A DNA stretch of 31,194 nucleotides from a virus. Numbering within the stretch: the stretch's first letter is position 1; each line of letters begins with the position of its first letter. Where the stretch lies: the IMG/VR virus record IMGVR_UViG_3300030329_001991, positions 1 through 31,194 of that record; one strand, written 5' to 3'. Shown here piece after piece: positions 3,445 to 28,974 of the stretch. The position numbers and the translations under genes are program-made. The notes under the pieces were generated by a model that searched no databases, was not told the origin of the DNA, and saw only the letters and a list, made by a program, of their open reading frames with translations.

Positions 3445-3661
3445 TGAACTTATAAAAGTTGCTAAAGAGCCTATTGTTGATTCAGATGATGATATATCAG
3501 CAGATAGATTAAAAAATGCAGCTGCTACAAAAAAATTAGCTATCTTTGATGCTTTTGAGATATTAAATAGAATTGAAGAGGAAAAAGCATTATTAGATAA
3601 TAAACCTTTAGAAAATAAAGAACAAAGCTTTTCAGGGTTTGCAGAAAAAAGATCTAAGTAA
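3389..3661 (+). CDS. terS: Probable terminase small subunit (TerS-like)
   Basis: The protein has 90 residues, largely helical and charged: KKNIIQAGQRAVDELIKVAK, then an acidic linker, ADRLKNAAATKKLAIFDAFEILNRIEEEKALL, and a short polar tail. The size, helical character and position directly before the large terminase (sharing one base, TAATG) fit the DNA-recognition small subunit. From memory, this short KNIIQAG family is found at this place in many marine phages. The start at 3389 is the only Met that keeps the conserved beginning; it forces a 56-base overlap with the upstream gene. No helix-turn-helix is obvious, so the role rests mainly on context. Confidence 0.6.
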   Translation: MNVKETKKNIIQAGQRAVDELIKVAKEPIVDSDDDISADRLKNAAATKKLAIFDAFEILNRIEEEKALLDNKPLENKEQSFSGFAEKRSK

Positions 3662-5880
3662 TGTATAAGCAAACATTGTATAGCATTATAGAGCCTATAA
3701 AAATCAATACGATTAAAAGGCTTAATAAAGCAAAAAAGTGGAAATACGGATATAACAAAGAACATGATATAATTGTTATAAGCAAAACCGGTCAGATAGG
3801 TGAGATATATGAGATACAAAATCTCAAAGTAGCTTTACCAAAACAACCCAAAGAAGTATTTAAAGGTAATAATAAATGGGAAGTTCAAGTTTATCCAAAA
3901 GAATTAAGTAAAATAAAAACAATATTTGATTGGAGAGATTTACCAGGGGATTTTAAAAATAAGTGGCACACATATATTGATTCAGAGTTTAGTAAAAGGG
4001 AAGATGGATATTGGTTTTATAACAAAGGTAAACCTACTTATATCACTGGTACTCATTATATGTATTTACAATGGGCTAAAATTGATGTAGGTAAACCGGA
4101 TTTTAGAGAAGCGAATAGGTTATTTTATATATTCTGGGAAGCTTGTAAAGCAGATAAAAGATGTTATGGAATGTGTTATTTAAAAAATAGACGTTCTGGA
4201 TTTTCTTTTATGGCCTCAGGTGAAGTTGTGAACTTAGCGACAATATCTAGTGATTCCAGATATGGTATATTATCTAAATCTGGTGCTGATGCAAAAAAGA
4301 TGTTTACAGACAAGGTGGTCCCTATTTCTGTTAATTATCCATTCTTTTTCAAACCAATACAGGACGGTATGGACCGACCTAAAACTGAACTTGCTTACCG
4401 TGTTCCGGCTAGTAAATTCACAAGAAGAAAACTTACATCTAATGAAACTATAGAGGATATTCAGGGACTAGATACTACAATTGACTGGAAAAATACTGGC
4501 GATAACTCTTATGATGGTGAAAAACTTGCTTTACTAGTACATGATGAAGCAGGTAAATGGGAACGTCCAGAGAATATTTTAAATAACTGGAGAGTTACAA
4601 AAACTACATTAAGATTAGGTAGTAGAATTATAGGAAAATGTATGATGGGCTCAACAAGTAATTCATCAGACAAAGGAGGAGAAAACTTTAAAAAATTATA
4701 CCATGACTCAGATATTACCAAAAGAAACCGCAATGGACAGACTCGCTCGGGACTCTATTCTTTGTTCATTCCTATGGAATGGAACTTCGAAGGATTCATT
4801 GATTCTTATGGAATACCTGTATTCGAAACACCAGAAACTCCCGTCGAAGACGTACATGGAGAGGAGATTAATATCGGCGTTATTGAACACTGGGAGAATG
4901 AAGTTGAGGGATTAAAAGGTGATCAAGATGCTTTAAATGAATTTTATAGGCAGTTTCCTAGAACAGAGGAGCATGCTTTTAGAGATGAAACTAGAAATAG
5001 CATCTTCAATTTAGCAAAGATATATGAGCAAATTGATTATAATGATGAAGTTGCAAATTTATCTCAAGTTACCGTTGGTAGCTTCTCATGGAAAAATGGT
5101 ATTAAAGATACAAAAGTACAATTTACACCAAATCCCAGCGGAAGGTTTAAAGTTAGCTGGGTGCCAAGAATAGAATTACAAAATAATATTATAATTAAAA
5201 ATGGTGTAAAATATCCAGGTAATGAACATATGGGTGCTTTTGGGTGTGACTCATATGATATATCAGGGACAACAGATGGGCAGGGTTCTAAAGGAGCTTT
5301 ACATGGTTTGACTAAGTTTAGTATGGAAAATGCTCCCGCTAATATGTTCTTTTTAGAATATATAGCTAGACCACAAACTGCAGAAATGTTTTTTGAAGAT
5401 GTATTAATGGCATTAGTATTTTATGGGATGCCATTATTAGCAGAAAATAATAAACCAAGATTATTATATTATTTAAAAAGAAGAGGCTACAGGCGTTATT
5501 CAATGAATAGACCTGATAGATTAAAAAATAAATTATCTGTTACAGAAAGAGAAATAGGTGGAATACCTAATTCTAGTGAGGATATAAGGCAAGCTCATGC
5601 TGCCGCAATTGAAACTTATATAAATGATTATGTTGGGCTTGTAGGTGATGGACAATATGGTGATTTATATTTTAACAGAACATTAAACGATTGGGCTAAA
5701 TTTGATATAAATAAAAGAACAAGGTTTGATGCCGCTATAAGTTCAGGCTTAGCGATTATGGCGTGTAATAAAAATAGGTATAGACCTAATGCAGAGCGAG
5801 TAAAACAAAAACTTAACATTACTTTAAACAAATACGAAAATAAAGGAACTTTATCAAAAATAATAAAAAATTATGGCTGA
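3661..5880 (+). CDS. terL: Terminase large subunit (packaging ATPase/nuclease)
   Basis: The protein has 739 residues. N-terminal ATPase: a deviant Walker A, KNRRSGFS (residues 175-182), in place of GKT; Walker B LLVHDEAG with Asp295 and Glu296; coupling motif MMGSTSN about 40 residues later. C-terminal RNase H-like nuclease: FGCDSYD with Asp530 and Asp533, and a late acidic residue, Asp690, in RFDAAISSG. The RRxGFS form of Walker A is seen, as I recall, in several large terminases including those of crAss-like phages. The enzyme docks on the portal, pumps DNA into the prohead and cuts concatemers. An N-terminal extension of about 80 residues precedes the usual WRDLPGDF region. It shares one base with terS and overlaps the portal gene by 8 bases. 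Confidence 0.93.
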   Translation: MYKQTLYSIIEPIKINTIKRLNKAKKWKYGYNKEHDIIVISKTGQIGEIYEIQNLKVALPKQPKEVFKGNNKWEVQVYPKELSKIKTIFDWRDLPGDFKNKWHTYIDSEFSKREDGYWFYNKGKPTYITGTHYMYLQWAKIDVGKPDFREANRLFYIFWEACKADKRCYGMCYLKNRRSGFSFMASGEVVNLATISSDSRYGILSKSGADAKKMFTDKVVPISVNYPFFFKPIQDGMDRPKTELAYRVPASKFTRRKLTSNETIEDIQGLDTTIDWKNTGDNSYDGEKLALLVHDEAGKWERPENILNNWRVTKTTLRLGSRIIGKCMMGSTSNSSDKGGENFKKLYHDSDITKRNRNGQTRSGLYSLFIPMEWNFEGFIDSYGIPVFETPETPVEDVHGEEINIGVIEHWENEVEGLKGDQDALNEFYRQFPRTEEHAFRDETRNSIFNLAKIYEQIDYNDEVANLSQVTVGSFSWKNGIKDTKVQFTPNPSGRFKVSWVPRIELQNNIIIKNGVKYPGNEHMGAFGCDSYDISGTTDGQGSKGALHGLTKFSMENAPANMFFLEYIARPQTAEMFFEDVLMALVFYGMPLLAENNKPRLLYYLKRRGYRRYSMNRPDRLKNKLSVTEREIGGIPNSSEDIRQAHAAAIETYINDYVGLVGDGQYGDLYFNRTLNDWAKFDINKRTRFDAAISSGLAIMACNKNRYRPNAERVKQKLNITLNKYENKGTLSKIIKNYG

Positions 5881-8299
5881 ATCAGTTATGAAAGACTACT
5901 TTCCAAGTCAAGCGGTTAATGATGATGAAAAATTATCATTTGCCTACGGCTTAGAGGTTGCAAAAGCTATAGAAAATGAATGGTTTAAGAAAACATCTGG
6001 TATGAACAGATATTTACAAAACCAAAATAATTTTCATAAATTAAGATTGTACGCACGAGGCGAACAAAGTATACAAAAATATAAAGATGAGTTATCTATT
6101 AATGGTGATTTATCATATCTTAATTTAGACTGGAAGCCAGTACCTATTATACCTAAGTTTGTAGATATAGTTGTAAATGGTATCGCAGAAAGAACTTATG
6201 ATATAAAAGCATTTGCACAAGATCCAAATGGCGTTAATAAAAGAACGGCTTATATGGAAAGGTTATTAGTTGATATGCAAACAACCCAAGTAACTGATTT
6301 TATTCAACAAAATTTTGGTATTTCTTTACAATCTACTCCAGGGCAAGATTTACCTGAGAATGATGAAGAGCTTCAATTACATATGCAGCTAAACTATAAG
6401 CAAGCTGTTGAAATAGCTGAAGAACAGGCAATTAGCACTGTTTTTAATTTAAATAATTATGAATTAACTAAGAAAAGATTTTATTATGATTTAACCGTCA
6501 TAGGTGTAGGGTGTGTTAAAAACACATTTAGTAATTCAGAAGGTATTAAAATTGAATATGTTGATCCTGCTAATTTAGTATATTCACATACAGAATCCCC
6601 ATATTTTGATGATGTATACTACATAGGTGAAATGAAAACTATAACCTTAGTTGATCTTAAAAAAGAATTTCCAGATTTAATGGATGAAGATATGCAGGGG
6701 TTATTAAAAAATGGAGGTGCTAATTATAATTTATATAACAGACATACAAGCGGTTCTAATAAAAAAGATAATAATTCAATAGAGGTTTTATATTTTAATT
6801 ATAAAACTTATATGAATGAAGTTTATAAAGTGAAAGAAACTGCTACAGGTGCTGAAAAAATTATTAAAAAATCAGATGCATTTAATCCCCCGCCTAATGC
6901 GAAGGGATTAAGATTTGAACGTATTGCAAAAAATGTAGAGGTATTATATGAAGGAGTATATATACCAGGGGCTAGAAAGCTTTTAAAATGGGGCATTGCT
7001 GAAAACATGCTTCGTGAAAAAAGTGATGTAAATAAAGTAAAATTGAATTATTCACTAGTTGCGCCTAGAATATATAATGGTAAAATTGAATCATTAGTTA
7101 GTAGAATAACAAGCTTTGCTGATATGATTCAATTAACACATTTAAAAATACAACAAATATTATCTAGGATGGTGCCAGATGGTGTCTACGTTGATGCTGA
7201 TGGTCTTGCTGAGGTTGATTTAGGTAATGGTAGTAATTATAATCCACAAGAAGCATTAAACATGTTCTTCCAAACTGGTAGTATTATAGGACGTTCATTT
7301 ACAGCTGATGGTGAAATGAATCCTGGTAAAATACCAATTCAAGAAATAAATAATGCTGCTGGTACAGGTAAATTATCAGCTTTAATTAGCACTTATAATT
7401 ATTATATGCAAATGATTAGGGATGCTACAGGATTAAATGAGGCTAGAGATGCAAGTACACCAGATGCTAATGCTTTAGTTGGTATTCAAAAACTAGCAGC
7501 TGCTAATAGTAATACAGCAACTAGACATATATTACAGAGTGGACTGTTTTTAACTACAGAAACTGCTGAAAAAATATCATTAAGAATATCTGATGTTTTA
7601 GAGTATTCTCCAACAGCGAATGCTTTTATACAATCTATTGGTGCTCATAATGTTGCAACATTAGAAGAAATGTCAGAATTACATTTACATGATTTTGGTA
7701 TATTCTTAGAATTAGAACCAGATGAAGAAGAAAAGCAATTATTAGAAAATAATATCCAAGTTGCTATTGCCCAAAATAATATACATCTTGAGGACGCTAT
7801 AGATATTAGAATGATAAAGAATGTTAAATTAGCAAATCAATTGTTAAAGCTTAGAAGGAAGAAGAAGGCGCAAGAAGATATGGAAAAAAATCAAGCTAAT
7901 ATTCAAGCACAGGCACAAGCAAATGCACAAGCCCAACAAGTAGCTGCGCAAGCAGAGGTTCAAAAACAGCAAGCTTTAACACAAAGCAAAATTCAGTTAG
8001 AACAAGCTAAAGGGCAACTTGAAATGGAGAAATTGCAAGCAGAAGCAGCATTGAAAAAAGAATTAATGGATTTAGAGTTCCAATATAATATGCAACTGCA
8101 TGGGGCTAAGAATGATGTTGAAAAAGAAAAAGTAAAAGAAAAAGAAGATCGTAAAGACGAACGAACAAAAATACAAGCAAGCCAACAAAGCGAGCTTATA
8201 GATCAACGTAAAAATAACTTACCACCAAAAAGTTTTGAATCTGGTGGGAATGATATTATGAGCGGTGATTTCGACTTAGGGGCATTTGATCCTAAGTAA
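5873..8299 (+). CDS. Portal protein
   Basis: The protein has 808 residues, directly after terL and before scaffold and capsid genes. The body holds portal-like elements: KFVDIVVNGIAERTYDIKAF near residue 100, a helical/beta clip, FYYDLTVIGVGCVKNTFSNS, and the long helix with SRITSFADMIQLTHLKIQQI. DATGLNEARDASTPDANALVG near residue 520 matches, from memory, the conserved stretch before the crown in P22-type large portals. Residues about 670-760 form a Gln/Ala-rich coiled coil, which would be the barrel or an extended crown. Twelve copies would form the DNA channel for terminase and tail. The family is assigned by sequence feel and synteny; the role is very likely. Confidence 0.9.
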   Translation: MAESVMKDYFPSQAVNDDEKLSFAYGLEVAKAIENEWFKKTSGMNRYLQNQNNFHKLRLYARGEQSIQKYKDELSINGDLSYLNLDWKPVPIIPKFVDIVVNGIAERTYDIKAFAQDPNGVNKRTAYMERLLVDMQTTQVTDFIQQNFGISLQSTPGQDLPENDEELQLHMQLNYKQAVEIAEEQAISTVFNLNNYELTKKRFYYDLTVIGVGCVKNTFSNSEGIKIEYVDPANLVYSHTESPYFDDVYYIGEMKTITLVDLKKEFPDLMDEDMQGLLKNGGANYNLYNRHTSGSNKKDNNSIEVLYFNYKTYMNEVYKVKETATGAEKIIKKSDAFNPPPNAKGLRFERIAKNVEVLYEGVYIPGARKLLKWGIAENMLREKSDVNKVKLNYSLVAPRIYNGKIESLVSRITSFADMIQLTHLKIQQILSRMVPDGVYVDADGLAEVDLGNGSNYNPQEALNMFFQTGSIIGRSFTADGEMNPGKIPIQEINNAAGTGKLSALISTYNYYMQMIRDATGLNEARDASTPDANALVGIQKLAAANSNTATRHILQSGLFLTTETAEKISLRISDVLEYSPTANAFIQSIGAHNVATLEEMSELHLHDFGIFLELEPDEEEKQLLENNIQVAIAQNNIHLEDAIDIRMIKNVKLANQLLKLRRKKKAQEDMEKNQANIQAQAQANAQAQQVAAQAEVQKQQALTQSKIQLEQAKGQLEMEKLQAEAALKKELMDLEFQYNMQLHGAKNDVEKEKVKEKEDRKDERTKIQASQQSELIDQRKNNLPPKSFESGGNDIMSGDFDLGAFDPK

Positions 8300-9546: not shown

Positions 9547-10974
9547 ATGGCAACAAACGTTTCATTTGCTGGCCCGGTGGCCGGCAGTATAGTTACTCCT
9601 GCAGCTCAACAAATGACGCTTGCGAGTAATTATTTAAATTTTCATACAGGTGGTGTAAACTGGGCACAACAGTATTTACCTGAACTGTATGCTCAAGAAG
9701 TTGAAAGATATGGCAACAGATCTGTTTCTTCATTCTTGAGAATGGTAGGTGCTGAAATGCCTATGGCTTCTGATCAAGTTATTTGGTCTGAGCAGGGTAG
9801 ATTGCACTTAGCTTATAATGGTGTATGTAACACTGATGTAAGTACAATTGGAACTATAACAGGTATTGACTCTGGTACTACTGAAGCTCACGCTATCAGA
9901 AAAGGAGCTACATTAGTATGTGTTATTGGTACTGTTGTATTTAAAGCTTATGTTACTGCAGGTATAGAAGCTTCAACTAGCTCTATTTCAATTAAGCCTT
10001 ACGGCGCTGAAAATGTAGATGACCTATCTGGAATTGCAGACGATAACTTAGCAATTAAATTCTTTGTTTATGGTTCTGAATTCGGCAAAGGTTCTGCTAG
10101 CATGACTGAATCTGTAGAGCCTGTGTTCAAATCTTTCACTAACAAACCAATGATTATCAAAGATCACTTTGAAATTTCTGGTTCTGATACTGCTCAAATT
10201 GGGTGGGTTGAAGTAAGTGGTGAATCTGGACAATCAGGTTACTTATGGTACATGAAGGCTGAAGGAGATACTAGAGTAAGATATGAAGACTATTTAGAAA
10301 TGAGTATGATTGAAGCAGAAAAATCAGTTGCATCTGCACACGCAGACGTTCCTGTTGGATCTGAAGGTTTATTATCTGCAATTGCAAACAGAGGTATCGT
10401 AGCAACGAATCAATTTGATTCTTCTACTCCTGCTGCTGACAAACTTGCTGAGTTTGACTTATTATTAAAAGAGTTAGACAAGCAAGGTTCAATTGAAGAG
10501 AATATGATGTTCTTAGATAGAGACGCTAATCTTTACATTGACGATTTACTTGCGGGATTAAACCCACATGTAACTGGTGGTGTTAATTACGGTGTATTTG
10601 AAAACTCTGCTGACATGGCTCTTAATTTAGGGTTTACTGGATTTAGAAGAGGTTCTTATGACTTTTACAAAACTGACTGGAAATATCTTAATGATGCTTC
10701 TACAAGAGGTTTAGTAGGTGGATTAAAAGGACTTTTAGTACCTGCTGGTACATCTTCAGTTTATGACCAACAATTAGGTAAAAACGTTAGGAGACCTTTC
10801 TTACACGTAAGATATAGAGCTTCTGAAATGGATGATAGAAGAATGAAATCATGGATTACTGGTTCTGTAGGTGGAGCATCTACAACTGGTGTTGACAAGA
10901 TGGAAATTCACTATCTTTCTGAAAGATGTTTAGTAACACAAGCTGCTAACAACTTTATCAGATTTGATTCTTAA
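9547..10974 (+). CDS. Major capsid protein
   Basis: The protein has 475 residues, right after the scaffold. It has the composition of a capsid protein (Gly, Ala, Ser, Val; few Cys) and no signal peptide. N terminus: Ala/Gly-rich arm, then QMTLASNYLNFHTGGVNW and YAQEVERYGNRSVSSFLRMV, leading into beta-rich domains; the C terminus has FLHVRYRASEMDDRRMKSW and IHYLSERCLVTQAANNFIRF. Codon choice differs from its neighbours (more C-ending codons such as AAC, GAC, TTC), consistent with very high expression, and a strong hairpin terminator follows. It would form the icosahedral shell, presumably with the HK97 fold, which cannot be read directly. From memory similar proteins are annotated as capsid in uncultured marine phages. 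Confidence 0.85.
   Translation: MATNVSFAGPVAGSIVTPAAQQMTLASNYLNFHTGGVNWAQQYLPELYAQEVERYGNRSVSSFLRMVGAEMPMASDQVIWSEQGRLHLAYNGVCNTDVSTIGTITGIDSGTTEAHAIRKGATLVCVIGTVVFKAYVTAGIEASTSSISIKPYGAENVDDLSGIADDNLAIKFFVYGSEFGKGSASMTESVEPVFKSFTNKPMIIKDHFEISGSDTAQIGWVEVSGESGQSGYLWYMKAEGDTRVRYEDYLEMSMIEAEKSVASAHADVPVGSEGLLSAIANRGIVATNQFDSSTPAADKLAEFDLLLKELDKQGSIEENMMFLDRDANLYIDDLLAGLNPHVTGGVNYGVFENSADMALNLGFTGFRRGSYDFYKTDWKYLNDASTRGLVGGLKGLLVPAGTSSVYDQQLGKNVRRPFLHVRYRASEMDDRRMKSWITGSVGGASTTGVDKMEIHYLSERCLVTQAANNFIRFDS
9568..9585 (+). promoter_or_regulatory. GC-rich stem-loop just inside the capsid gene start
   Basis: GCTGGCC (9568-9574) pairs with GGCCGGC (9579-9585), with one G-U pair, around the loop CGGT. 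It begins 21 bases after the A of the ATG, in codons 8-13. The codons used there (GGC CCG GTG GCC GGC) are rare in this AT-rich phage, which suggests selection on the RNA. A role in translation start or mRNA stability is inferred. Confidence 0.35.
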
Positions 10975-13688: not shown

Positions 13689-16600
13689 ATGCCAGAAATT
13701 AAAAATGCTTTTATCCAAGGTAAAATGAATAAAGACCTTGATGAAAGATTAATTCCTAATGGTGAATATAGAGACGCACTAAATGTTGACGTTGATTTTT
13801 CAGACGGCAGCAGTGTAGGCGCCCTAAAAAATATTAAAGGGACTACACAGAGAGATTCTATATCCCTGTCGTCAGCTACATGTATAGGTAATGTTAAAGA
13901 TACTGAAAATAGTAAAATATATTGGTTTATAACATCTTCCGCAAAAGATTTAATATCTGAGTGGAATTATTCAACAAACGCATATGATACAATATTAGTT
14001 GACAGCGGCAGTGTATTAAATTTTAATACTAATAATTTAATAACAGGTGCAAATGTTATTGACGGTATATTATACTTTACAGATAACTTAAATGAACCAA
14101 GACAAGTAGATATTGAATATTGGAGGAGCCAAACATCTGGTTCTACTGGTACAAGCACTGGATTAACAGCGGAAAGAATAACTGTTATTAAAAAATCACC
14201 TTTAGCCGCTCCAACACTAAGTATGAGTAGTTCTACAAGGGGAGGAACTGGTACAGCAGGAGGTAATACAGTAACTTGTAGTATAGATTTATCTGCTTCA
14301 GCAGGTAGTGATTTACAAAATGCAAAAGATGCAGGGACTACTGTTAGCGGTACTTTTAGTGCAGATCCAAATTATCAAGCTAATGATATTATAATATTTA
14401 GTTTTGATTTCTCTGCTTCAGATGGTGAAATAACAAAAACAGAAGCTAGAATAAAAATGGCATCAAATTATGATGGTGGTACAGGTTTTTCAGGCGCTGA
14501 AATATTAACAATAAGCAAACAAGTTAGAGGGGCCGCTGTTGCTTACACATGTTTACTGCAAGAAGACGACCCTCTTTTTGAAAGAAAATTTCCAAGATTT
14601 TCATATAGATATAAATATAATAATGGACAATATTCTTGTTTAGCTCCATTTTCTAATCCAGCATTTTTACCTGATTCAACAGTAGGCAGTGGTACTGGGT
14701 TTGAATATAATGCAGAAGATGGATATAACAAATCAATGGTTAATACATTACGTGCATTAACATTACAAAATTTAGACAGCAATGTTCATGCTGATGTTGA
14801 TGAAATTGATATAATCTATAGGGAATCTGTTGGTACAAACGTTTATATTGTAGATACAATTAAAAGACAATCAAATGGTAGTTTAGCAACCACATTTGAA
14901 GTTAAAGATGAACAAATATTTAAAGTTTTACCTTCAAATCAATTATTAAGATTATTTGATAGTGTTCCTAAAAAAGCAAAAGCACAAGATGTAAGTGCGA
15001 ATAGATTAATATATGGTAATTATACACATCAATTTGACTTACCTGTTGCACCTGTAGCATTTGAAGTGGGATTAAGAAATAGATATGACCCTACTGATTC
15101 AAATAGAAATGAAAGACAATCTATAAAATCAAATAGAACATATCAAATTGGTGTTGTATATATGGATTTATATGGTAGACAAACACCTGTTTTAACAGAT
15201 AAAACTGGTATTATAAAAGTACCACAAGGGCAAGCTAAAAATATGACCCAATTAACTGCAAAAATAACAACATCTGCACCGGCGTTTGCAACAAACTATA
15301 GATATTTTATTAAAGAAATATCATCTTTACAATATAATTTATGTGCAGATAGTTTTTATCAAGATGATCAGGGATATGTATATGTATCATTTCCTTCTGC
15401 AGAAATAAATAAAGTTGATATTGATGATATATTAATATTAAAAAAGAAAACAGGTAATGACCCTTCCGATATTACAGATAAATTTAAAGTATTAGATAAA
15501 CTAACAACACCTCCGCAGTTTTTAGCAAAGCCATTAAGAGAATATTATACCCCAACAACATTTACATTTAGTAAAGATTACGAACAAGACCATGACCAAA
15601 CAACAATAAAGCCGGGCTCTACTCCTGTTCCAGATAGAAATAGAGTGACTATTAGGGATATGCACAATAAGGGTGAATTAAAAGTAGCCAGCGCAAGTGC
15701 AACAATGGGTAGCTCTGATAGAGGTGTTTCAAAAGACGCTTTTTCAGCTGTATCAACAGGTAAAAAAGTAAAATTTATTTGTGGTGATACTGAAAGTAAA
15801 GTTTATGAAATAAAATCTAGAGAACTAAATCTTTCTGATGACGATGATATTGAATTACATTTTACAGAAGAATTTGGTACTGATGTTATAGGTTTATATG
15901 AAGATTATGTTGCTAATCCTCTTACAACTGCTTTAAGACCAGGTGTAAAATTAGTGGGTGTTAAAGAAGAAGATGAATCTGGTAAAGCAGAATTTGAAGG
16001 TAGGTTCTTTTTAAAATTAAAAGCTGATACTAATCTAATTGCCGAGCTTAAAGGTAGCGTAACTAATACAGAAAATTTAAATGCAATTAGTACAATATCT
16101 TTAGATGGTGACCAAGCTGATAATGACCCAAGAGCTCTACATGTATTTACTGGGGGTAATGCAGGGGAAAACACAAGTAGCTCAACCGTTAGAGACGCTG
16201 CCCCGACTGCAGGTGGTTGGACATCACCAAATAATAATGCAAGTGCTACTGGTACGCCTGGGTGGCAAAATAGTGCCCACGGCTCTGTGCTTGTTGCTAA
16301 TCCATATCATTTTTCAATAAGAACAGATAAGTCATATGGGGATGCTGATTCGGATTATGGGGCGCACCCATTTTTACAAAATTTAAAAGCAGGTAATTTT
16401 TTAAAATTTGACAATACAGCTACTGCAGATACAAATTATTATAAGATTGAAAGAGTATACCAATATGATGAAAATTATGATAGTAGTACAAGAAGAGTAT
16501 ATGGTATAGGGTTAGATACAAATCTAAGCCAAACATTAAGAAGACAAGGAGATGATGGGGATGCTAATACTATGCAAATGACTGTATATGAAATTGATAG

Positions 16601-18122
16601 TGAAGATTTAGTTAATATAGTTAATCCACCAATATTTGAAACAGAGCCACAAGATGATGTAGATATTGATTTATATTATGAAACTCAGGAAAACATGACA
16701 GTAAGTAGTAATCATGGTAATAATAACCTATTGTCATATTATAATTGTATTAGTTTTGAAAATGGTGTTGAAGGAGTTACAATAAGAGACGACTTTAATT
16801 CACCACCTGTTGGTAAAGGTGTTAGGGTTTCGACAATATTTGAAGATAATTATCAAGAAGAAGCTGTTACTAATGGTTTAATATTTTCCCAAATATATAA
16901 TGGTAAAACAAATGTTAATAGATTTAATCAATTTATTATAGCAGAAGATATTACGAAAAGACTTAATCCAGAATATGGTAGTATTCAATTATTACATACA
17001 AGATATAATGATATAATTGCATATTGTGAAAATAAAGTTATTAAAATACTTACAAATAAAGATGCATTATTTAATGCTGATGGGAGCACTAACGTAACAT
17101 CTAATAAAGCTGTTTTAGGGCAATCAATGCCTTATAGTTCTAATTATGGTATTGGAACTAATCCAGAAAGCTTTGATGACTTTCTATTTAGAAGTTATTT
17201 TGTAGACGCTAAAAGTGGAGCAGTAGTAAGACATTCAATGGACGGCATGGAAGCTATATCAAATTATGGGATGAAAGATTATTTTAGAGATAATTTAAAT
17301 TTACAATCAGGATATATCCATGGTTCCTATGATGTTGTTAAGTCACAATATAATATTTCTTTACCTACCACTGTTAATACTACAGTTTCTTTCTCAGAAC
17401 CAATAAATGGCTGGTGTAGTAGGAAATCATATGTAAATGAAGGGGGTGTTAGTGTGAATAATAAATACTTTACATTTAAAAATGGGCATATATATGAAAA
17501 TCATGTAGGAACTAGAAATACATTTTATGGCGCTGCAACTACACCATTTGTAGAGTTTATATTTAATGAAGCTCCTGCTAATATGAAAAATTTTAGAACA
17601 TTAAATTATGAAGGAGATTCTGGTTGGACTTGTGCAAGCATAGTTACTGATCAGCAAGACGGTGCTGTTGCTTCTTTTATAGAAAAAGAAAATAAGTATT
17701 TTAATTACATAAGTGGTGTTACAGAAAACGCATCCACAATTGATTTAAAAGCTTTAAATGTACAAGGAATAGGGGTATACAGTAGTGTTTCAACAAGTGG
17801 AGGTGATCATATAACATATAATTTTGCTAATAATACACCACAAGATTTACAAAAAGCTGATACATTATATTATGTTCACCCAACCGGTGATGTTATTACA
17901 GAGATTGGAACTATAACAGCAGTTACAGCAACATCGGTCACAGGAAGGTATTCATCAGCCCCTCCAACAGGTGGATCACCTTATTTTGTGTTTTATTCAA
18001 AAAATGCAAAATGGCAAACAAGCGGACTATTGGGGTACCATGCTACTGTTAAAATGCAAAATACATCTACAGATTCTAAAGAGATATATTCTGTAGGTAG
18101 TGAAATTAGCATAAGCAGTTAA
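13689..18122 (+). CDS. Large tail nozzle/stabilisation protein (T7 gp12 / P22 gp10-like)
   Basis: The protein has 1477 residues. The N terminus, NAFIQGKMNKDLDERLIPNG, then EYRDALNVDVDFSDGSSVGA and KNIKGTT, follows the opening of phage tail nozzle and stabilisation proteins (P..EYRDALNV.....G.....N..GT). Residues 298-315, ERKFPRFSYRYKYNNGQY, and VDEIDIIYRESVGTNVYIVD further on belong, from memory, to a family shared by marine and crAss-like phages. The rest is beta-rich, with no membrane segment or enzyme motif seen. The size is nearly twice T7 gp12, so extra domains are present, perhaps in residues 600-1000, which are Gly/Asp/Asn-rich. It would form the distal tube and attach fibres. The role is inferred from pattern and from its place after the adaptors. 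Confidence 0.7.
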   Translation: MPEIKNAFIQGKMNKDLDERLIPNGEYRDALNVDVDFSDGSSVGALKNIKGTTQRDSISLSSATCIGNVKDTENSKIYWFITSSAKDLISEWNYSTNAYDTILVDSGSVLNFNTNNLITGANVIDGILYFTDNLNEPRQVDIEYWRSQTSGSTGTSTGLTAERITVIKKSPLAAPTLSMSSSTRGGTGTAGGNTVTCSIDLSASAGSDLQNAKDAGTTVSGTFSADPNYQANDIIIFSFDFSASDGEITKTEARIKMASNYDGGTGFSGAEILTISKQVRGAAVAYTCLLQEDDPLFERKFPRFSYRYKYNNGQYSCLAPFSNPAFLPDSTVGSGTGFEYNAEDGYNKSMVNTLRALTLQNLDSNVHADVDEIDIIYRESVGTNVYIVDTIKRQSNGSLATTFEVKDEQIFKVLPSNQLLRLFDSVPKKAKAQDVSANRLIYGNYTHQFDLPVAPVAFEVGLRNRYDPTDSNRNERQSIKSNRTYQIGVVYMDLYGRQTPVLTDKTGIIKVPQGQAKNMTQLTAKITTSAPAFATNYRYFIKEISSLQYNLCADSFYQDDQGYVYVSFPSAEINKVDIDDILILKKKTGNDPSDITDKFKVLDKLTTPPQFLAKPLREYYTPTTFTFSKDYEQDHDQTTIKPGSTPVPDRNRVTIRDMHNKGELKVASASATMGSSDRGVSKDAFSAVSTGKKVKFICGDTESKVYEIKSRELNLSDDDDIELHFTEEFGTDVIGLYEDYVANPLTTALRPGVKLVGVKEEDESGKAEFEGRFFLKLKADTNLIAELKGSVTNTENLNAISTISLDGDQADNDPRALHVFTGGNAGENTSSSTVRDAAPTAGGWTSPNNNASATGTPGWQNSAHGSVLVANPYHFSIRTDKSYGDADSDYGAHPFLQNLKAGNFLKFDNTATADTNYYKIERVYQYDENYDSSTRRVYGIGLDTNLSQTLRRQGDDGDANTMQMTVYEIDSEDLVNIVNPPIFETEPQDDVDIDLYYETQENMTVSSNHGNNNLLSYYNCISFENGVEGVTIRDDFNSPPVGKGVRVSTIFEDNYQEEAVTNGLIFSQIYNGKTNVNRFNQFIIAEDITKRLNPEYGSIQLLHTRYNDIIAYCENKVIKILTNKDALFNADGSTNVTSNKAVLGQSMPYSSNYGIGTNPESFDDFLFRSYFVDAKSGAVVRHSMDGMEAISNYGMKDYFRDNLNLQSGYIHGSYDVVKSQYNISLPTTVNTTVSFSEPINGWCSRKSYVNEGGVSVNNKYFTFKNGHIYENHVGTRNTFYGAATTPFVEFIFNEAPANMKNFRTLNYEGDSGWTCASIVTDQQDGAVASFIEKENKYFNYISGVTENASTIDLKALNVQGIGVYSSVSTSGGDHITYNFANNTPQDLQKADTLYYVHPTGDVITEIGTITAVTATSVTGRYSSAPPTGGSPYFVFYSKNAKWQTSGLLGYHATVKMQNTSTDSKEIYSVGSEISISS

Positions 18123-20469: not shown

Positions 20470-23400
20470 ATGCCAAATATAAATCAATTATTAATAAAAG
20501 CTTTATATAATGAGTATGATCCTAATGTGGATATTAATGCTCAAATAAACTTTGTTAATGAAAATTATACTTCACAGGATAAATTTGTGGAAGACTTTTA
20601 TAAAGAATATGGTACTGAGTTAACACCTGAAATAAAATTATTTATAAATCAGAATTTTGGTGGATTTGAACCTGTTGCTAAACCAACTATAGATGTTGAT
20701 GACTATGATGTTTCAATGTCCCCAGAAGGCGCTACTGTTGCTGCAGAAAATAAATTATCAGAGGGAGAATTAAGAGCTATTGATCAAAAGTTTTCAGATA
20801 TTAGTTATTTTGATAAACTTGTTTATGAATTTCAACCAATAGGAGATAATATTTTTGAAAAAGGTATGAATGTTGGTGATACTGAAAAACAAAAAATTGT
20901 TGAAACTGATACGCTTCAAATGTATGAAGATTTAAAAATTACAAAGGATGATCATAATAAAAATGTTGAAAAGGAATACAAAAAATTACTAGAACCTCAT
21001 GCTTATAATTTATCTGAATCTGAAATCGAAAAATTAAATGATATTAGGCGTGAATTAATTTCTCAAGGATTTAAAGGGGAGATTTTGGAAAAAGCTTTAT
21101 TTGAAGAAGCCCAAAAATTAGTATTAGAAAATTATAAATATCAATATATTTATAGCGTAAGACTCGATAAGGTTAATAGATATCTAAGTGATAGAGCAGA
21201 TTTATTTAGCGTAAAAGGCCCATCTTTAAAAAGAGGGGTTTCATCTTATAAAGACACTGTTTTTCCTGTTTCTGTGCCTATGAGAGAAACACCTGATTAT
21301 GATGAATTTAAAGATTTACAGGGTATTATTTTTAAAGATGTTGAAAAATTTCAAGAAGTTAATAAAACCCTTAAAGAAGATTATGAAGAAAATCAAGAAT
21401 TAGGTAGAGAAATATTAGCATATAGAGAGCGTGCGTCCCAACCAGGATTTGAATTTGATAGCGAAGAAGCTATTGCCATGCAGAAAAAATTAGCTTTATA
21501 TAGAGCAAATAAAAAAGTATTACTAGAGGTTTTGCCAGATATTCAATTAGCTACTGGGGATATGGAGACACTAAATGTTGCGGCAGGATTACTAGGTAAA
21601 GATTACGATACATTAAATAAAAATATGGCAACCGTAGTATTGGGCTTTGGAGATTTAGGCTTGGGTGCTATGAGAATTATGTCGGGGGCTGGCAATCTTC
21701 CTATAACTTTAGGAGCCATACCTCTACCTGATGCAGCAAAGTGGGCTGAAAATAGAACAATTGATATGGATAACCTTTCATTAAAGTGGGATAATTTTAA
21801 AGCTGGGGTTAAGAATACATACAAGCCAGATATTAAATTTGAAAATGCTTTTGATAGTTTAGACAATTTTGGTGAATTTGCCATGCAAGAAATTTCTACT
21901 CAAATACCTATATTTACAACAATGATTGCTGGAGGGGGACTTGCGGGTTGGACTGCACGGAAGCTGGGTGTTTCAGGTACAGTTAAAATTTTAGGTAGAA
22001 ATGTACAAAAAATACCTTTAATTGAAGCAACTGGTGCAGGGGCTTGGATTGGAGGTGCTTCAGGTGGCCAACAATATAATACTATGACTGCCCAAGAAAT
22101 GCGAGACCCTTTCTTAGAATATAGTGAAGCTGAAAAATTCTTAGTATCTGCTGGATATGGAGCAGCAGAAGGTATCTTTGGAACTGCTCCTTCATATATG
22201 TTATTACGTAATACAGCAAAATTCTTATTAAGAGACCCTAGTAAACAGGCATGGAAAATAAGTGGAAAACAATTTTTTAAAAATAACATAGCTTTCCCAG
22301 TAATAGCAGAACCTGTTAGTGAGGGTTTAACAATGGTTTCTCAAAACTGGCTATTGGGTAGACCATTGATGGAAAATGTAGACCATGCAATGTTCTCAGG
22401 GCTTATGTTTAGTATTATAATGAACGCAGCGCCGGCAACTGCTGGTAGAATGATGCAGGATTTTAGTTCATTTTCTGATATGAAAAAATTCAATGAAATA
22501 AATTCTGAAATGAATGCTATTGAAAAAGCTTTAAATAGAAAAAATTCAAAGTTTAAAAAAGGAACAACCGAGTATAATAGCCTTGTTAATTCATATAATC
22601 AATTAAAAACAGATAGGGAAGCTATAATAAATGACTTATATAATAATATAACTACCAAAATGTCTAAAAGGGCTTTTAAGCAATTTATGGAGAATACTGT
22701 AGCCCAGCAAGATATTAGAATACAAGCTCAAAAAATTTATGATGAAGCAGGGGGAATGTTTTTATCAGCGGATGACACAAGGGCTCTTAATGCACTACAA
22801 AAAGAATTTGATAAATACCAATTTGCAAGGGATTTATTTAGGTCTCAAGAAAATTTTGGTAATGAATTTGCTAATCTTAAGGGTAAAGATTCAAATCTTT
22901 ATGACACGTATATAAAGAAAGCAAAGCAAAAATTAAAGCGTGATGGAATAAACGACCCTAACACTACTAAAGTTTTCCAAGAAGCATCTAGTATATATTT
23001 TGCTGACCAATTTGATTTACATACAAAAAATGCAAAGGGGAATGAATTACAAAATATAAAAGTTTTTGAAACCAACCAAGACTTAATTAAATTTATTGAG
23101 CAAGACCCTAAACGTAAAGCAGAGCTTGATAAAAAAGGAAAACGTTGGATTATTGAAAATGGTAAAATAGTTTATAAAACTACCACAAGTAGAGATGCCA
23201 TATTAAGAGGGGATATTAATGGTATAAATACTGAAATTAAGGGTAAAAATTTTGAATTAATATCTAAAGAAAATGCCTTAGCAAATGAAAGAGCAGGAAC
23301 TGGTTATCACGAGTTTGCTCATTCAGTATTATTTAAAGCATTAGCTGCAAACCCTGAGCAATACCTTGACATAGCTAAAACTATTAAAGATTATATAAAA

Positions 23401-26400
23401 GACACAGATAAAAAACTGTATAATATAATGTTCAAATCCGGGGGAGGTCAACAAGCGGATATAACTAACCCAGAAGAAGTTATAGTAAACTTTTTAGAAA
23501 GAATTGCAGAAGGTAAAGTAAAAGATCCCAAGCTTATAGGTGTAATTGCGGAGAGCTTAAGTAAAAAAAGCGGGATGGATATTAATTTTAGAAGTGAATT
23601 AGATACTATAAAGTTTCTATATGATATAGGAATGAAAATAAAAAATGGTACTTTTAAAAGAAGTGATTTAAAAAGTATAAGGGTAAATTTAAGAGGGAAA
23701 CTTAATCAAGCTGATGCTGATGTAAAAAAGCTGATTGATGGAATGAAATTTTCAGATTCAACAATAAAACCGGGTTCTGACGCTGATATAATTCAAAAAT
23801 TGTGGAAAAACCTTGGTGCTGAAGCGGTACCTCAGATTGCAAATAATAAATATATTAGAAATGTTATAAATGAAATTTTAAAAAAATATTCAGGAGTTCC
23901 TGGTTTTACTACTTATAAAAAAGAATTTGAAGATGGATTAATTAATGATCCTGTGTATGGAATATTGGGTTCTTTATTAACATACGATCCTAAGAAAAAC
24001 CCAGTACTAGCTTCACATATTATAGCAAGATTAAGACAAAGAAGTAAAACGATTGCCGAAGATATATTCCCACAATTTTTTGGCGGTGACTATAAAGAAA
24101 CAGGGTATGACCCAACTGATCCCGAAGTATTAAATCAAAGGGAAAGCCTTAGGACTGCATTGGGATTAAATCCAGAAATAATTGAAAAAGTAAAACAATC
24201 AGTAATAAAAACATTTGGTACTAGATTACCTAAGGTAGATTCTAAAAAATTTAAATTTGCTTTACAAAAAGCATTTAGGACAGAATTAAAAAAATTAATT
24301 ACTGACTATATAGGTACAACAAAAGAAACCGTTAAACCTGAAGATGATATAGTCGTTGAAATTAATCCTTATAAATTATTTTTAGATGAATATTTTGAAT
24401 TAGCATATGGTATTATATCGCAGGGGAATATTAATAAAAGATTTGAGCAATTTAGCGAAGAGGTTTTTGACCCTAAAAAAGGTAAAAGAGCAAGAGAAAG
24501 TACTCCAGAGGGTAATACAATATTTATTAAAAGAGATATTACAAAAGAAGAGTGGATGAATTATTTCTTAGGTGATGATGTTAAACCTTCTACTAAAGGA
24601 ACAAGGAAAACAGCTTTAGCTGAATCGTTAGCTGAAGAAATTGCATTTGACGCTACACTAGATGTATTAAGAGACGAAAAGATATTAGATAAAGTTCAAC
24701 AAATTGTAGAAATTAATGGTGAACAATTTAGTGAAAATTATTTAGCACAAGTTGCAAAAGAAATTGACAGAGCTGTTGACTTTGAATTTAGTGACTCAAG
24801 CGCTGGTATAACTGTATTAGATTTTGATGATACTGTTGCGATTTCTAAAAGCAAGGTAAGTGTTACAATGCCTAATCAAAGCGCTGTTTACAATGCTAGT
24901 CCAAAAACTTTTGAAGAGCTAGGTAAGAGAACAGGTTTAATATTTTTAGCTACAGATATAAGAGAAGCCCAAGAATATGCTAGAATGAATAGAGGAGAAG
25001 TTAAGCAGTTCTCAATAAATAATTCTAGTTTAGCAGTTGAAACTCAAGTTTTAGATATAATGAAACAGCTAAAAATTGATACTAGTAAAGGTTTATTATA
25101 TGAAATGATAGACCCTAGGTTTAAAAATTTTTATATTGGAAAGAAAAATGTAAACAAAATAAAAGCTGCTTTAAAAGAAAAAGGTTTTGGTGGATTTAAA
25201 TATACTGATGGAACTCAGGTAGTTGGTGGAACAACACAGAGTATAGCTGTTATAGATAAGTCTATAATTAAACAACCAACAAAACTAACTGCTACTGAAT
25301 TTGCAAAACAACATGATGCATTAAAGAAAGACGGTGCTAAATTTGATTTTAGTGAATTTAATAAAGTTATAGGAGGTGAAAAAGGACCTTTATTTAACAG
25401 ATTACAAAAAGCTGTAAATAAATTTGGTAATAAAAATGTATTTATATTAACCGCAAGACCACAAGAAGCAGCACCAGCAATAAAAGCATGGTTAAAATCG
25501 CAAGGTATAGCATTATCTGAAAAAAATATAATTGGATTATCTGATGGTTCTCCGCAAGCAAAAGCAGATTGGATATTAGGTAAAGCAAAAGAAGGATTCA
25601 ATAACTTTTATTTTGCAGATGATGTATTAGAAAATACATATGCCGTTGAACAAGTATTATCACAAGTCGATGTTAAATACCGAATAGATACAAAATTCAG
25701 TGATAGTAAACCGAATATAGTAAACCTTTTAGAGTCATTTGATGGCAATTTAGGTACTTTTGTTGAGTTTTTTGAGGCCTTAATAAAAGGGCAGAAAAAA
25801 TATAATGATATAACTTCTAAACAAATAAAAGGCGCTAAAGGGCAAATTTTAGAATATTATGTTGCAATGGAAGTTAAAGGTTTACTTGGTGACAGGGTTG
25901 AAATTGTTAATATGGACTATTTAAAGCAACTAAAAACTGGCGATAAAGGTATTGATATTCGATTTAGAGTTGATGGCGGTAAAGAGTTTGGAATAGAAAT
26001 TAAAAGCAAATTTACTGATAAAGTTGGTTCAAAAGCTGGGTATACAGAAACAAATAGAGTATTAGGAGGGGAAGCATTAATACAAGTTAAAAATGCCCAT
26101 GAAGTATTATTAAAGAGAACTACAGATGTTCTTGATAAATTAAATATTGAGTATTATATAGATAAAGATAATGACAATAAGCTTTATACTGAAAAGTTTA
26201 TTAATGGTAAAAAAATAGATGATTTATTAAAAGAAAATGGGGTTCTTTTTTCTGACCAACAACTTAATTTTACAATTGATGGATTAGAAACCATTGCTGA
26301 TATATATGCAGAAAAAGGTGGAAGTTATATATATTTTGACGATGTAGGTTTACTATCTTTAACAAATAACCCTATGCATATGGGTACAAATAAAAATTGG

Positions 26401-28974
26401 TGGGGAAGAAGAGTTGGGGGAGTAAGAAGTGTATTAAATTTAACTGATACAAAAGGTGATAGATTTAATACTGAGGTACAACCAACACTTAAAACAGGTA
26501 AAGGTGGCAATACATTCTATAATAAGAAAAGCGGTAAAAATTTAAAAGCTGAAGATGTAAGAACATTTTTTGTAAGAAGTTACTTCTATATACAAAAAGC
26601 AGATGGTAAAAGAGCAACTGCAAAAGATATAGACCCTAGCATTAATATAAATGAAGCATTTACAAACTTTAGTGATAGTGGTGTAAATTTAAATAATGGA
26701 ATAAATAATATAATAGAACAAAGTTCTGGTATTAAAAATATTGTTAAATACTCTGATACTAAAGGGTATGTTCTTGGCGCAAAAGGATTTTATAGAAACG
26801 AATTAAAAGGAGGATTTATATTTAGATTTACCGCAGATGATTTAAAAGGCTTTACATATGAAATGATGAAAAATATAAGGGGTGAAGAAGGTAATAAAGC
26901 AAAAGCATTTTTTATAGAAAATTTACATAGACCTTATAATACCGGTATTCAAGGGCTTAATTTTGAAATGATGAAAATGGCAGATGATATTAAGGCTCTA
27001 AAAGCTAAATACAAAAAAACTGCTGGAAAATTAAAGAAACGAATTAAAGGTGATATATATACTAATGACCAAGCTGTAAGAATATATATATGGAAAACAC
27101 AAGGTATGGATATACCTGGGATTCCTAAACAAGATATTGCCGATATGGTGAACTATGTTAAAGATGATTTAAGTTTAATGCAGTTTGCTGAAGAAGTAAT
27201 TAAACTAAGCGGCAATAAAGGTTACCCTGCGCCAGAGCTTAATTGGGAGGCTGGTACTATAGATATGGATTTAGCTCATGATTTAAATACAAGAAGGAGA
27301 GCCGAACATTTAAAAGAATGGCAAGAAAATGTTGATATAATGTTTTCTAAAAAGAATTTAAATAAAATGAGGGTTGCATATGGTAATGAATTTGTTGAAC
27401 AACTGGAAGGGATGCTTGAGAGAATGCGTACAGGTAAAAATAGGCAGGCTCAGAACAAAATAGTCAGGAATTGGGAAGAATGGGTTAATGGATCTGTTGG
27501 TACAATAATGTATTATAATATGCGTTCTGCTTTGCTACAAACAATATCTATGGCTAACTATATTAATTGGCATGATAATAATCTATATGCAGCTGGTAAA
27601 GCTTTTGCAAATCAAAAACAATATTGGAAAGATTGGTTAATGATTTTTAATTCAGATTATCTTAAAATAAGAAGAGGTGGGTTACAATTAAATATAAATG
27701 AAGCTGAACTTGCTGAAGCCGCAAATAAAGGAGGCGTTAAAGGTGTTACAGCTTTAATATTAAAAAATGGGTTTACACCTACAAGAATTGCAGATAGTTT
27801 TGCAATTGCAATGGGTGGTGCTAGTTTCTATAGAAACAGGGTTAATTCTCTTATTAAAAAGAAAAAAATGAGTGAAGCAGAGGCTAAGAAAAAAGCCTGG
27901 GAAGATTTCATGGAGCTCACAGAAGAAGCACAACAATCTAGTAGGCCAGATAAAATATCTGCTCAACAAGCTTCACCTCTAGGTAGGCTGTTATTAGCGT
28001 TTGCCAACACACCTATGCAGTATAATAGGATAATAAAAAGAGCGGGCCAAGATTTATATTATGGTAGGGGTGATTGGAGATCAAATTTAAGTAAAATAGT
28101 TTATTATAGCTCACTACAAAACTTTTTATTTAACTTTTTACAAAAAGGAGTATATGCTTTAGGGCTCGGGTTATACGATGATGACCCAGACAAGCAAAAA
28201 GAGAAAGTTACTAATGTATTTGAAGGAATGGCAGATTCACTACTAAGAGGATTTGGTACTGGTGGGCAAGTAGTTTTAACAGCAAAAGGTTTTGGGAAAG
28301 ACATGTTAAAAGAAGACCAAAGTTTTTATGATTCAGATTGGAAAAATATATTAGAATTATCACCTCCTATAGGTAGTAAAATTAAAAAACTGATGAGTGC
28401 TGATTATCTAAAAAAGACATATAAAAATAGTAAGCAATGGGAAGAATGGAGTATTCGTAATCCTCGCCTTGGACATTTTGCTAAATATTCTGAAGCATTA
28501 TTTAATATACCATTAGATAGATTATTAATAAAAACTCATAATTTACAATCAGTATTTTCTGATGAAACAGCAGATTGGCAAAAAGTAGCTTTAACTTTAG
28601 GTTGGAATGAGTGGGACTTAGGTATTGAAGGAATGGATTTACATTCTGAGTTTGGTAAAACACCTATAAAAACCGATGAATATTTAAAAGAAAGAGAAGA
28701 GACTAAAGAAAATCATCAAAGAAAAATTGATTCAATTGTAAACTTAGGTTATACAAGAATACCTTTATCAGGCCCAAGGTCGTTTAAACCAGAAGGCGAA
28801 GAAGGTGTGGACTATATAAGGCTTAAAAGAAAGCTTGATGGTAAATGGCAATATTTTGTACCAAAAGCAGTGTTTGATAAAAAATTCCCACCTAAGAAAA
28901 AAGAACCGAAGACTGTTGAAGAAATACTTGAAGATGCTAGAAAAAGATTAAAGAAAAAAGGATTAACAATATAA
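20470..28974 (+). CDS. Giant multi-domain virion protein (polyvalent ejection protein)
   Basis: The protein has 2834 residues, third of the internal protein trio and so in the place of T7 gp16. In order: N-terminal charged helices (1-440); Gly/Ala-rich hydrophobic segments (about 390-420 and 475-665) that could insert in membranes; helical part; metallopeptidase-like HEFAH (947-951) with Glu1002/1003; helical unknown part (1094-1440); HAD-type hydrolase (1448-1740) interrupted by an ART-like domain (about 1472-1602); PD-(D/E)xK-like nuclease (about 1750-1920); unknown beta domain (1930-2060); long C-terminal part (2095-2834) of a kind that, from memory, recurs in giant virion proteins of marine phages. 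[FY]SD recurs at domain borders. This is the build of polyvalent proteins (term of Iyer, Aravind and colleagues). Probably packaged in the head and injected. Individual activities are unproven. Confidence 0.75.
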   Translation: MPNINQLLIKALYNEYDPNVDINAQINFVNENYTSQDKFVEDFYKEYGTELTPEIKLFINQNFGGFEPVAKPTIDVDDYDVSMSPEGATVAAENKLSEGELRAIDQKFSDISYFDKLVYEFQPIGDNIFEKGMNVGDTEKQKIVETDTLQMYEDLKITKDDHNKNVEKEYKKLLEPHAYNLSESEIEKLNDIRRELISQGFKGEILEKALFEEAQKLVLENYKYQYIYSVRLDKVNRYLSDRADLFSVKGPSLKRGVSSYKDTVFPVSVPMRETPDYDEFKDLQGIIFKDVEKFQEVNKTLKEDYEENQELGREILAYRERASQPGFEFDSEEAIAMQKKLALYRANKKVLLEVLPDIQLATGDMETLNVAAGLLGKDYDTLNKNMATVVLGFGDLGLGAMRIMSGAGNLPITLGAIPLPDAAKWAENRTIDMDNLSLKWDNFKAGVKNTYKPDIKFENAFDSLDNFGEFAMQEISTQIPIFTTMIAGGGLAGWTARKLGVSGTVKILGRNVQKIPLIEATGAGAWIGGASGGQQYNTMTAQEMRDPFLEYSEAEKFLVSAGYGAAEGIFGTAPSYMLLRNTAKFLLRDPSKQAWKISGKQFFKNNIAFPVIAEPVSEGLTMVSQNWLLGRPLMENVDHAMFSGLMFSIIMNAAPATAGRMMQDFSSFSDMKKFNEINSEMNAIEKALNRKNSKFKKGTTEYNSLVNSYNQLKTDREAIINDLYNNITTKMSKRAFKQFMENTVAQQDIRIQAQKIYDEAGGMFLSADDTRALNALQKEFDKYQFARDLFRSQENFGNEFANLKGKDSNLYDTYIKKAKQKLKRDGINDPNTTKVFQEASSIYFADQFDLHTKNAKGNELQNIKVFETNQDLIKFIEQDPKRKAELDKKGKRWIIENGKIVYKTTTSRDAILRGDINGINTEIKGKNFELISKENALANERAGTGYHEFAHSVLFKALAANPEQYLDIAKTIKDYIKDTDKKLYNIMFKSGGGQQADITNPEEVIVNFLERIAEGKVKDPKLIGVIAESLSKKSGMDINFRSELDTIKFLYDIGMKIKNGTFKRSDLKSIRVNLRGKLNQADADVKKLIDGMKFSDSTIKPGSDADIIQKLWKNLGAEAVPQIANNKYIRNVINEILKKYSGVPGFTTYKKEFEDGLINDPVYGILGSLLTYDPKKNPVLASHIIARLRQRSKTIAEDIFPQFFGGDYKETGYDPTDPEVLNQRESLRTALGLNPEIIEKVKQSVIKTFGTRLPKVDSKKFKFALQKAFRTELKKLITDYIGTTKETVKPEDDIVVEINPYKLFLDEYFELAYGIISQGNINKRFEQFSEEVFDPKKGKRARESTPEGNTIFIKRDITKEEWMNYFLGDDVKPSTKGTRKTALAESLAEEIAFDATLDVLRDEKILDKVQQIVEINGEQFSENYLAQVAKEIDRAVDFEFSDSSAGITVLDFDDTVAISKSKVSVTMPNQSAVYNASPKTFEELGKRTGLIFLATDIREAQEYARMNRGEVKQFSINNSSLAVETQVLDIMKQLKIDTSKGLLYEMIDPRFKNFYIGKKNVNKIKAALKEKGFGGFKYTDGTQVVGGTTQSIAVIDKSIIKQPTKLTATEFAKQHDALKKDGAKFDFSEFNKVIGGEKGPLFNRLQKAVNKFGNKNVFILTARPQEAAPAIKAWLKSQGIALSEKNIIGLSDGSPQAKADWILGKAKEGFNNFYFADDVLENTYAVEQVLSQVDVKYRIDTKFSDSKPNIVNLLESFDGNLGTFVEFFEALIKGQKKYNDITSKQIKGAKGQILEYYVAMEVKGLLGDRVEIVNMDYLKQLKTGDKGIDIRFRVDGGKEFGIEIKSKFTDKVGSKAGYTETNRVLGGEALIQVKNAHEVLLKRTTDVLDKLNIEYYIDKDNDNKLYTEKFINGKKIDDLLKENGVLFSDQQLNFTIDGLETIADIYAEKGGSYIYFDDVGLLSLTNNPMHMGTNKNWWGRRVGGVRSVLNLTDTKGDRFNTEVQPTLKTGKGGNTFYNKKSGKNLKAEDVRTFFVRSYFYIQKADGKRATAKDIDPSININEAFTNFSDSGVNLNNGINNIIEQSSGIKNIVKYSDTKGYVLGAKGFYRNELKGGFIFRFTADDLKGFTYEMMKNIRGEEGNKAKAFFIENLHRPYNTGIQGLNFEMMKMADDIKALKAKYKKTAGKLKKRIKGDIYTNDQAVRIYIWKTQGMDIPGIPKQDIADMVNYVKDDLSLMQFAEEVIKLSGNKGYPAPELNWEAGTIDMDLAHDLNTRRRAEHLKEWQENVDIMFSKKNLNKMRVAYGNEFVEQLEGMLERMRTGKNRQAQNKIVRNWEEWVNGSVGTIMYYNMRSALLQTISMANYINWHDNNLYAAGKAFANQKQYWKDWLMIFNSDYLKIRRGGLQLNINEAELAEAANKGGVKGVTALILKNGFTPTRIADSFAIAMGGASFYRNRVNSLIKKKKMSEAEAKKKAWEDFMELTEEAQQSSRPDKISAQQASPLGRLLLAFANTPMQYNRIIKRAGQDLYYGRGDWRSNLSKIVYYSSLQNFLFNFLQKGVYALGLGLYDDDPDKQKEKVTNVFEGMADSLLRGFGTGGQVVLTAKGFGKDMLKEDQSFYDSDWKNILELSPPIGSKIKKLMSADYLKKTYKNSKQWEEWSIRNPRLGHFAKYSEALFNIPLDRLLIKTHNLQSVFSDETADWQKVALTLGWNEWDLGIEGMDLHSEFGKTPIKTDEYLKEREETKENHQRKIDSIVNLGYTRIPLSGPRSFKPEGEEGVDYIRLKRKLDGKWQYFVPKAVFDKKFPPKKKEPKTVEEILEDARKRLKKKGLTI
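21625..22470 (+). other. Gly/Ala-rich hydrophobic region of the giant protein
   Basis: Residues about 386-667 hold several uncharged Gly/Ala/Met-rich stretches: VVLGFGDLGLGAMRIMSGAG, IFTTMIAGGGLAGWTA, ATGAGAWIGGASGG, VSAGYGAAEGIFGTAPSYML and AMFSGLMFSIIMNAAPATAG. They alternate with charged pieces. This is what is expected of a protein that is soluble in the virion and enters membranes during ejection. Transmembrane topology is inferred. Confidence 0.45.
23275..23560 (+). other. HExxH metallopeptidase-like segment of the giant protein
   Basis: GTGYHEFAHSVLFKAL places HExxH at residues 947-951 (bases 23308-23322). A third ligand candidate lies 50 residues on, in NPEEVIVNFLERIAEG (Glu1002, Glu1003), followed by a helical stretch, as in gluzincin-type peptidases. 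It could cleave host proteins after injection, or the giant itself. Zinc binding is inferred from the motif only. Confidence 0.55.
24802..25690 (+). other. HAD hydrolase domain interrupted by an ART-like domain
   Basis: HAD motif I is DFDDT (residues 1451-1455). Motif II-like TARP (1661-1664) and the final acidic pair in FADD (1717-1718) follow only after residue 1604. Between VTMP (1467-1470) and TKLTATEF (1604 on) sits a block of about 130 residues resembling ADP-ribosyltransferase-like domains: VYNASPKTFEEL, a LIFLATDIREAQEYA element, EVKQFSI, EKGFGGFKY and the terminal AVIDKSIIK. The expected His of VYHxS is Asn1475 here. The two HAD halves rejoin smoothly if the block is removed. Confidence 0.6.
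25790..26170 (+). other. PD-(D/E)xK nuclease-like domain of the giant protein
   Basis: Motif order is that of the restriction-endonuclease fold: a helix with Glu1795 (KGQILEYYVAMEVK), then GDKGIDIRF with Asp1829, then EFGIEIKSKF with Glu1843 and Lys1845, 14 and 16 residues after the Asp. This D..ExK spacing is canonical. The domain would cut DNA; host chromosome degradation or attack on competing phage or plasmid DNA are the options. The target is unknown. Confidence 0.6.

Follow-up and report, generated by a model that had tools for sequence, protein, structure and literature searches.

An ART-PolyVal-like module nested at the flap of a probable HAD phosphatase in a giant phage protein: a candidate slot for interchangeable cassettes

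HAD phosphatases, ADP-ribosyltransferases (ARTs), polyvalent proteins and cap insertions are each already known. T4 Pnkp, for instance, carries its kinase and its phosphatase side by side. For the ARTs of polyvalent proteins, a role in modifying the host has been proposed (PMC5512222) and, in crassviruses, packaged cargo is specified by genes that follow the muzzle (PMC10172136). In our literature searches, whose coverage was partial and which are weak evidence in this respect, no description was encountered of an ART within a HAD, nor of a socket such as the one considered below.

Genomic setting of the giant protein

The window (i.e. the whole 31,194-base virus record that was analysed) displayed the gene set of a phage structural block (Table 1). 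Its terminase was 62% identical to that of an environmental Caudoviricetes record and about 45% identical to those of Flavobacterium phages, further matches being found in Cellulophaga phages. Three genes past the muzzle-type gene lies an ORF of 2834 aa, which combines several domains of catalytic type (a HAD, an ART-like module and a zincin-type HExxH motif) and thereby belongs with the giant multidomain polyvalent proteins. The HExxH motif was also present in all ten relatives of the giant protein that were looked at. Crassvirus cargo, too, comprises large proteins whose genes follow a muzzle homologue (PMC10172136), whereas the 2834-aa protein had no sequence match in the phage collection (tblastn against named phages). 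Since the muzzle homologue and the gene order resemble those of crassviruses, this protein of a marine phage is probably a packaged component of the virion that is carried into the host, as far as gene order can tell.

Table 1. Features of the window and of related loci (L numbers), with residues numbered in the 2834-aa ORF.
Feature	Position	Strand	Residues	Remarks
S74-type tail fibre	window			
Terminase	3661-5880			
Portal	5873-8299			
Virion protein	9547-10974			
Muzzle-type virion protein	13689-18122	+		PF25729 above its cut-off; phrog_14478
Giant polyvalent-type ORF	20470-28974	+		2834 aa; houses the nested unit
HEFAH	23308-23322		947	Zincin-type metallopeptidase motif
HAD, N-terminal part	24784-24873	+	1439-1468	
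HAD motif I, DFDDT	24820-24834	+	1451-1455	
ART-PolyVal-like module	24874-25284	+	1469-1605	137 aa
Strand-1 position, Asn	24892-24894	+	1475	YNASP begins at 1474
HAD, C-terminal part	25285-25701	+	1606-1744	LTATEF at 1606
HAD motif II, TAR	25450	+	1661	TARP
HAD motif III, Lys	25561	+	1698	
HAD motif IV, FADD	25612-25623	+	1715	
GIDIRF...EFGIEIKSK	25948-26010		1827-1847	PD-(D/E)XK nuclease-like motif directly past the HAD; by eye only
LAGLIDADG_3 match			1867-1922	Under cut-off
Empty counterpart of second ART site of L095/L096	27859-27867	+	2464-2466	
Second ART site	L095:~5998-6399; L096 from 6001			Different region of a homologous giant protein
P-loop kinase in HAD slot	L040:8088-8690; L037, L038, L047, L049, L054, L062, L070, L072, L074, L075, L078			about 199 aa; Zeta/AAA_33-type
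YYHGT module in HAD slot	L127:3127-3588; L134:3148-3609; L137			Possibly a second ART type
143-147-aa module in HAD slot	L031:7545-8000; L112 from ~3079			Weak matches to families of unknown function
44-46-aa insert in HAD slot	L025-L028, L052, L060, L146			Helical-looking
67-aa insert in HAD slot	L041, L048			
Two ART-type domains in tandem	L203:3977-4700			

A HAD split at the tip of its flap

The HAD was complete, with intact motifs I (DxDx(T/V)), II (Thr/Ser), III (Lys) and IV (acidic pair), and was split by the module just after motif I. A scan of viral contigs gave 80 loci, and at least 475 HAD relatives were confirmed. The spacing between LDFD and FDFSEF was 43-44 aa in 55 of the first 81 sequences and 175 aa in the window. 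In an alignment of 52 rows the extra length appeared as a single clean block insertion, flanked by invariant D13/D15/T17, T223, K260 and D279/D280 (alignment numbering). The block was absent from most relatives, including the nearest ones (L003-L006), whose DNA aligned to the window on both sides of it. Their HAD C-terminal parts were 85-91% identical to that of the window, the value being 91% in the insert-free L004 and L005.

An AlphaFold (AF2) model of residues 1439-1744 was confident (pLDDT 92.4, pTM 0.81). There, the insert emerges between flap strands 25-28 and 166-168 of the model, i.e. at the tip of the HAD flap hairpin, which is the C1-cap position. The original prediction of a HAD interrupted by an ART-family domain at the cap position was thus borne out by the clean block, the intact motifs, the insert-free relatives and the model. 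It could have failed on two points, an ordinary HAD cap or homologues without a gap; the insert is not such a cap, and many relatives lack the block.

HAD structures filled the VIA-align list for the whole model, in agreement with a HAD Rossmannoid fold, and the top match of the HAD part was the 3'-phosphatase of T4 Pnkp (5uj0, Z 11.3, rmsd 2.9, 127 aa). Matches in a viral structure library comprised PNKP-phosphatase proteins, large polyvalent proteins and ART-PolyVal-like proteins. A Foldseek search of the PDB with the full model returned nothing at E<=0.001, and the HAD profile found no match among PDB sequences. At the sequence level, Pnkp-type families gave weak matches (phrog_415, 0.0014; TIGR01664, 0.007) and NCBIfam sub-threshold ones only. 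The T4 enzyme and the window HAD share their fold, the four HAD motifs and T-x-R in motif II; they differ in that identity is about 13%, that the flap loop of the window HAD takes large inserts and that it is part of a 2834-aa protein. The HAD, a probable phosphatase, is closest in fold to the T4 Pnkp 3'-phosphatase and so probably acts on nucleic-acid ends or nucleotides, a substrate read from fold similarity at this low identity.

The inserted module and its relatives

Submitted alone, the window insert gave no Pfam match. Among members of its family, ART-PolyVal (PF18760) recurred with alignments over most of the domain, C-terminal strands included, and with E-values of 4e-6 (L192), 3e-5 (L180), 1.8e-4 (L095), 2.7e-4 (L188), 8.5e-4 (L002) and 1.1e-3 (L086), others being weaker. 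The Pfam curated cut-off of 31.2 bits was never reached (best member 28.1 bits) and the module is therefore named ART-PolyVal-like rather than a member. Profile-profile comparison with the ART-PolyVal domains of roseophage vRNAPs gave an E-value of 1.8e-5 over the N-terminal core, with YHGT aligned to YNAS. A structure prediction of the ART part only (5 rows) was poor (pLDDT 64.5) and its matches, NatT being the best (Z 2.9), were uninformative. When named phages were searched with the ART by tblastn, only Phage C75C1 was found, at about 30% identity; a search of genome contigs with the ART profile retrieved no relative. The window insert is likely related to ART and, given this relationship, the His-to-Asn change at strand 1 is secure. 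ART-PolyVal domains (PF18760; PMC5512222) resemble the window module in their strand-1 motif, in the next strand and helix, which align, and in being housed by giant phage proteins that also bear a zincin-type HExxH. The window module differs in its strand-1 Asn, in an expanded helical middle and in being nested in another enzyme.

The strand-1 residue varied across the family. His was kept in L101-L103, L186-L188, L192, L197 and L201-L203, some of which are relatives with the module in the same slot. The earlier assignment of the usual His to Asn1475 was supported, YHGT falling on YNAS in the profile alignment. Asn marked the window group (L082, L085, L086, L002, L095, L096 and L180), while Ala was found in L184 and L185, Thr in L181 and Arg in Phage C75C1. 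Many members of the module family displayed HGG or HGA at this motif. The late acidic position was E, Q, K, T or N across the family, and the idea that the acidic residue had been lost in all nested copies was dropped, since this position varies freely. In the Asn-bearing group dN/dS was 0.14-0.32; such purifying selection indicates that the module is not decaying. The suggestion of a binding domain rather than an enzyme is plausible for the window copy, but does not extend to the family as a whole, which is not defined by loss of the His (L101-L103 and L186-L188 keep it).

Several comparisons point to movement of the module. In L190 and L191, ART modules that are 94% identical reside within HADs that are 56% identical, and DNA identity is about 80-93% from some 45 bases before the module to the module end, falling outside these limits. 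Likewise, L082 and L085 share 88% identity in the ART versus 59% in the HAD. In all eight pairs compared, which are not all independent, dS was lower in ART than in HAD, a difference to which differing constraint may contribute. The same ART module also interrupts a different region of homologous giant proteins (L095 and L096), for which the window offers an empty counterpart. In L184, L185, L192 and L198 it lies just ahead of a segment that matches the window protein from residue 2054 or 2083 on, and these module sites displayed no HAD match to the window. In L197 and L201-L203 it occurs in giant proteins without other detectable similarity to the window protein. In L203 the ART-like module is directly followed by a canonical ART-PolyVal (61 bits).

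Occupancy and interpretation of the slot

No insert was present in 106 of the 140 distinct HADs compared, a sample drawn with an ART-containing query and thus biased as regards occupancy. The nested ART-in-HAD arrangement was common to 16 contigs, and besides the ART-PolyVal-like module the slot held at least five other kinds of insert (Table 1). The kinase was found at 12 loci, its L040 copy matching AAA_33 (3.6e-11), Zeta toxin (1.3e-9) and the polynucleotide-kinase family phrog_505 (4e-7). With a kinase and a phosphatase in a single nested unit, the content of these loci is reminiscent of polynucleotide kinase-phosphatase; the two are side by side in T4 Pnkp, whereas in L040 and the others the P-loop kinase is within the HAD. 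The YYHGT module was judged to be a possible ART by eye, without Pfam support. On a tree of the 140 distinct HADs, built with inserts left out, the insert state changed at least 20 times by parsimony, gains and losses being counted together. The ART type required 9 changes for 13 rows, and a single clade was rejected.

The reading that we favour, with a probability of roughly 0.6, is that of a HAD phosphatase in a probably injected polyvalent protein, whose flap tip is an interchangeable cassette slot and whose ART-like occupant in the window is a binding domain or passenger. It draws on the nesting itself, on the slot being empty in close relatives and otherwise occupied in further ones, on several acceptor contexts, on the spread of the module over HAD backbones and on purifying selection, all seen in the sequences. 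The tip of the flap hairpin, at the C1-cap site, would be permissive, and recombination would place self-contained modules there in frame, either homologously via conserved flap sequence or by illegitimate insertion. The window module would be an ART-PolyVal-family domain that lost its strand-1 His, most likely a binding domain (for an NAD-like ligand, a protein or nucleic acid) or an independent passenger, and not an ADP-ribosyltransferase.

A further step, still tentative and with chances somewhat short of even, would make the flap tip an evolved socket on a conserved phosphatase scaffold of an injected protein, where phages swap in-frame effector domains (ART types, kinase, others) by recombination at the domain boundary, the ART being a mobile domain that enters other loops as well.

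A coupled modifying and dephosphorylating unit had been put forward originally. There, the ART-like insert would function as a cap, binding or processing ADP-ribose or phosphates derived from NAD, and the HAD would then dephosphorylate these compounds. The cap position of the insertion, the conservation and selection of the insert sequence and the 16 contigs sharing the arrangement are consistent with such a reaction. Yet, most HAD relatives have no insert, unrelated domains use the slot elsewhere, the same ART is found away from any HAD and the window copy lost its strand-1 His. As each of the two parts, HAD and insert, also occurs without the other, the coupled reaction is unsupported and we regard it as unlikely.

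A module that is still active as a toxin-like or host-modifying ART, and for which the loop is no more than a tolerant site, would require Asn1475 to be compatible with activity. The host-modifying role proposed for polyvalent-protein ARTs (PMC5512222), the His of relatives in the same slot and purifying selection all agree with it, but the strand-1 position is Asn in the window group and Ala, Thr or Arg in others, and the late acidic position is free to vary, which makes this reading quite unlikely. Finally, it is very improbable that the insert, instead of an ART, is a nucleic-acid-binding domain made up of a beta-hairpin and a winged helix, which would assist the phosphatase in holding DNA or RNA. 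Over their helices, YNASP-type members weakly match winged-helix F93 (0.0013) and the 'DNA binding protein' family phrog_25401 (2.8e-6 to 0.009), which may serve as a lead only, whereas His-group members have no phrog_25401 match, ART-PolyVal matches in many members extend to the C-terminal strands, and the profile match to true ART-PolyVal takes in the HGT strand, where many members display HGG or HGA.

Should the flap tip indeed be a socket, it would represent the sub-gene counterpart of effector cassette exchange. The closely related empty and filled alleles, with boundaries visible at the DNA level, allow asking how domains enter giant phage proteins, whether the cap position serves as a socket and whether inserts retarget the enzyme that harbours them or are merely carried along. 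Mosaicism of polyvalent proteins is known and is usually read as end-to-end joining, whereas here exchange would take place in a single defined loop of a folded enzyme. The C1 caps known from HAD enzymes tend to be helical and do not usually change within a family; at this locus, in contrast, the occupant differs between close relatives and is often absent.
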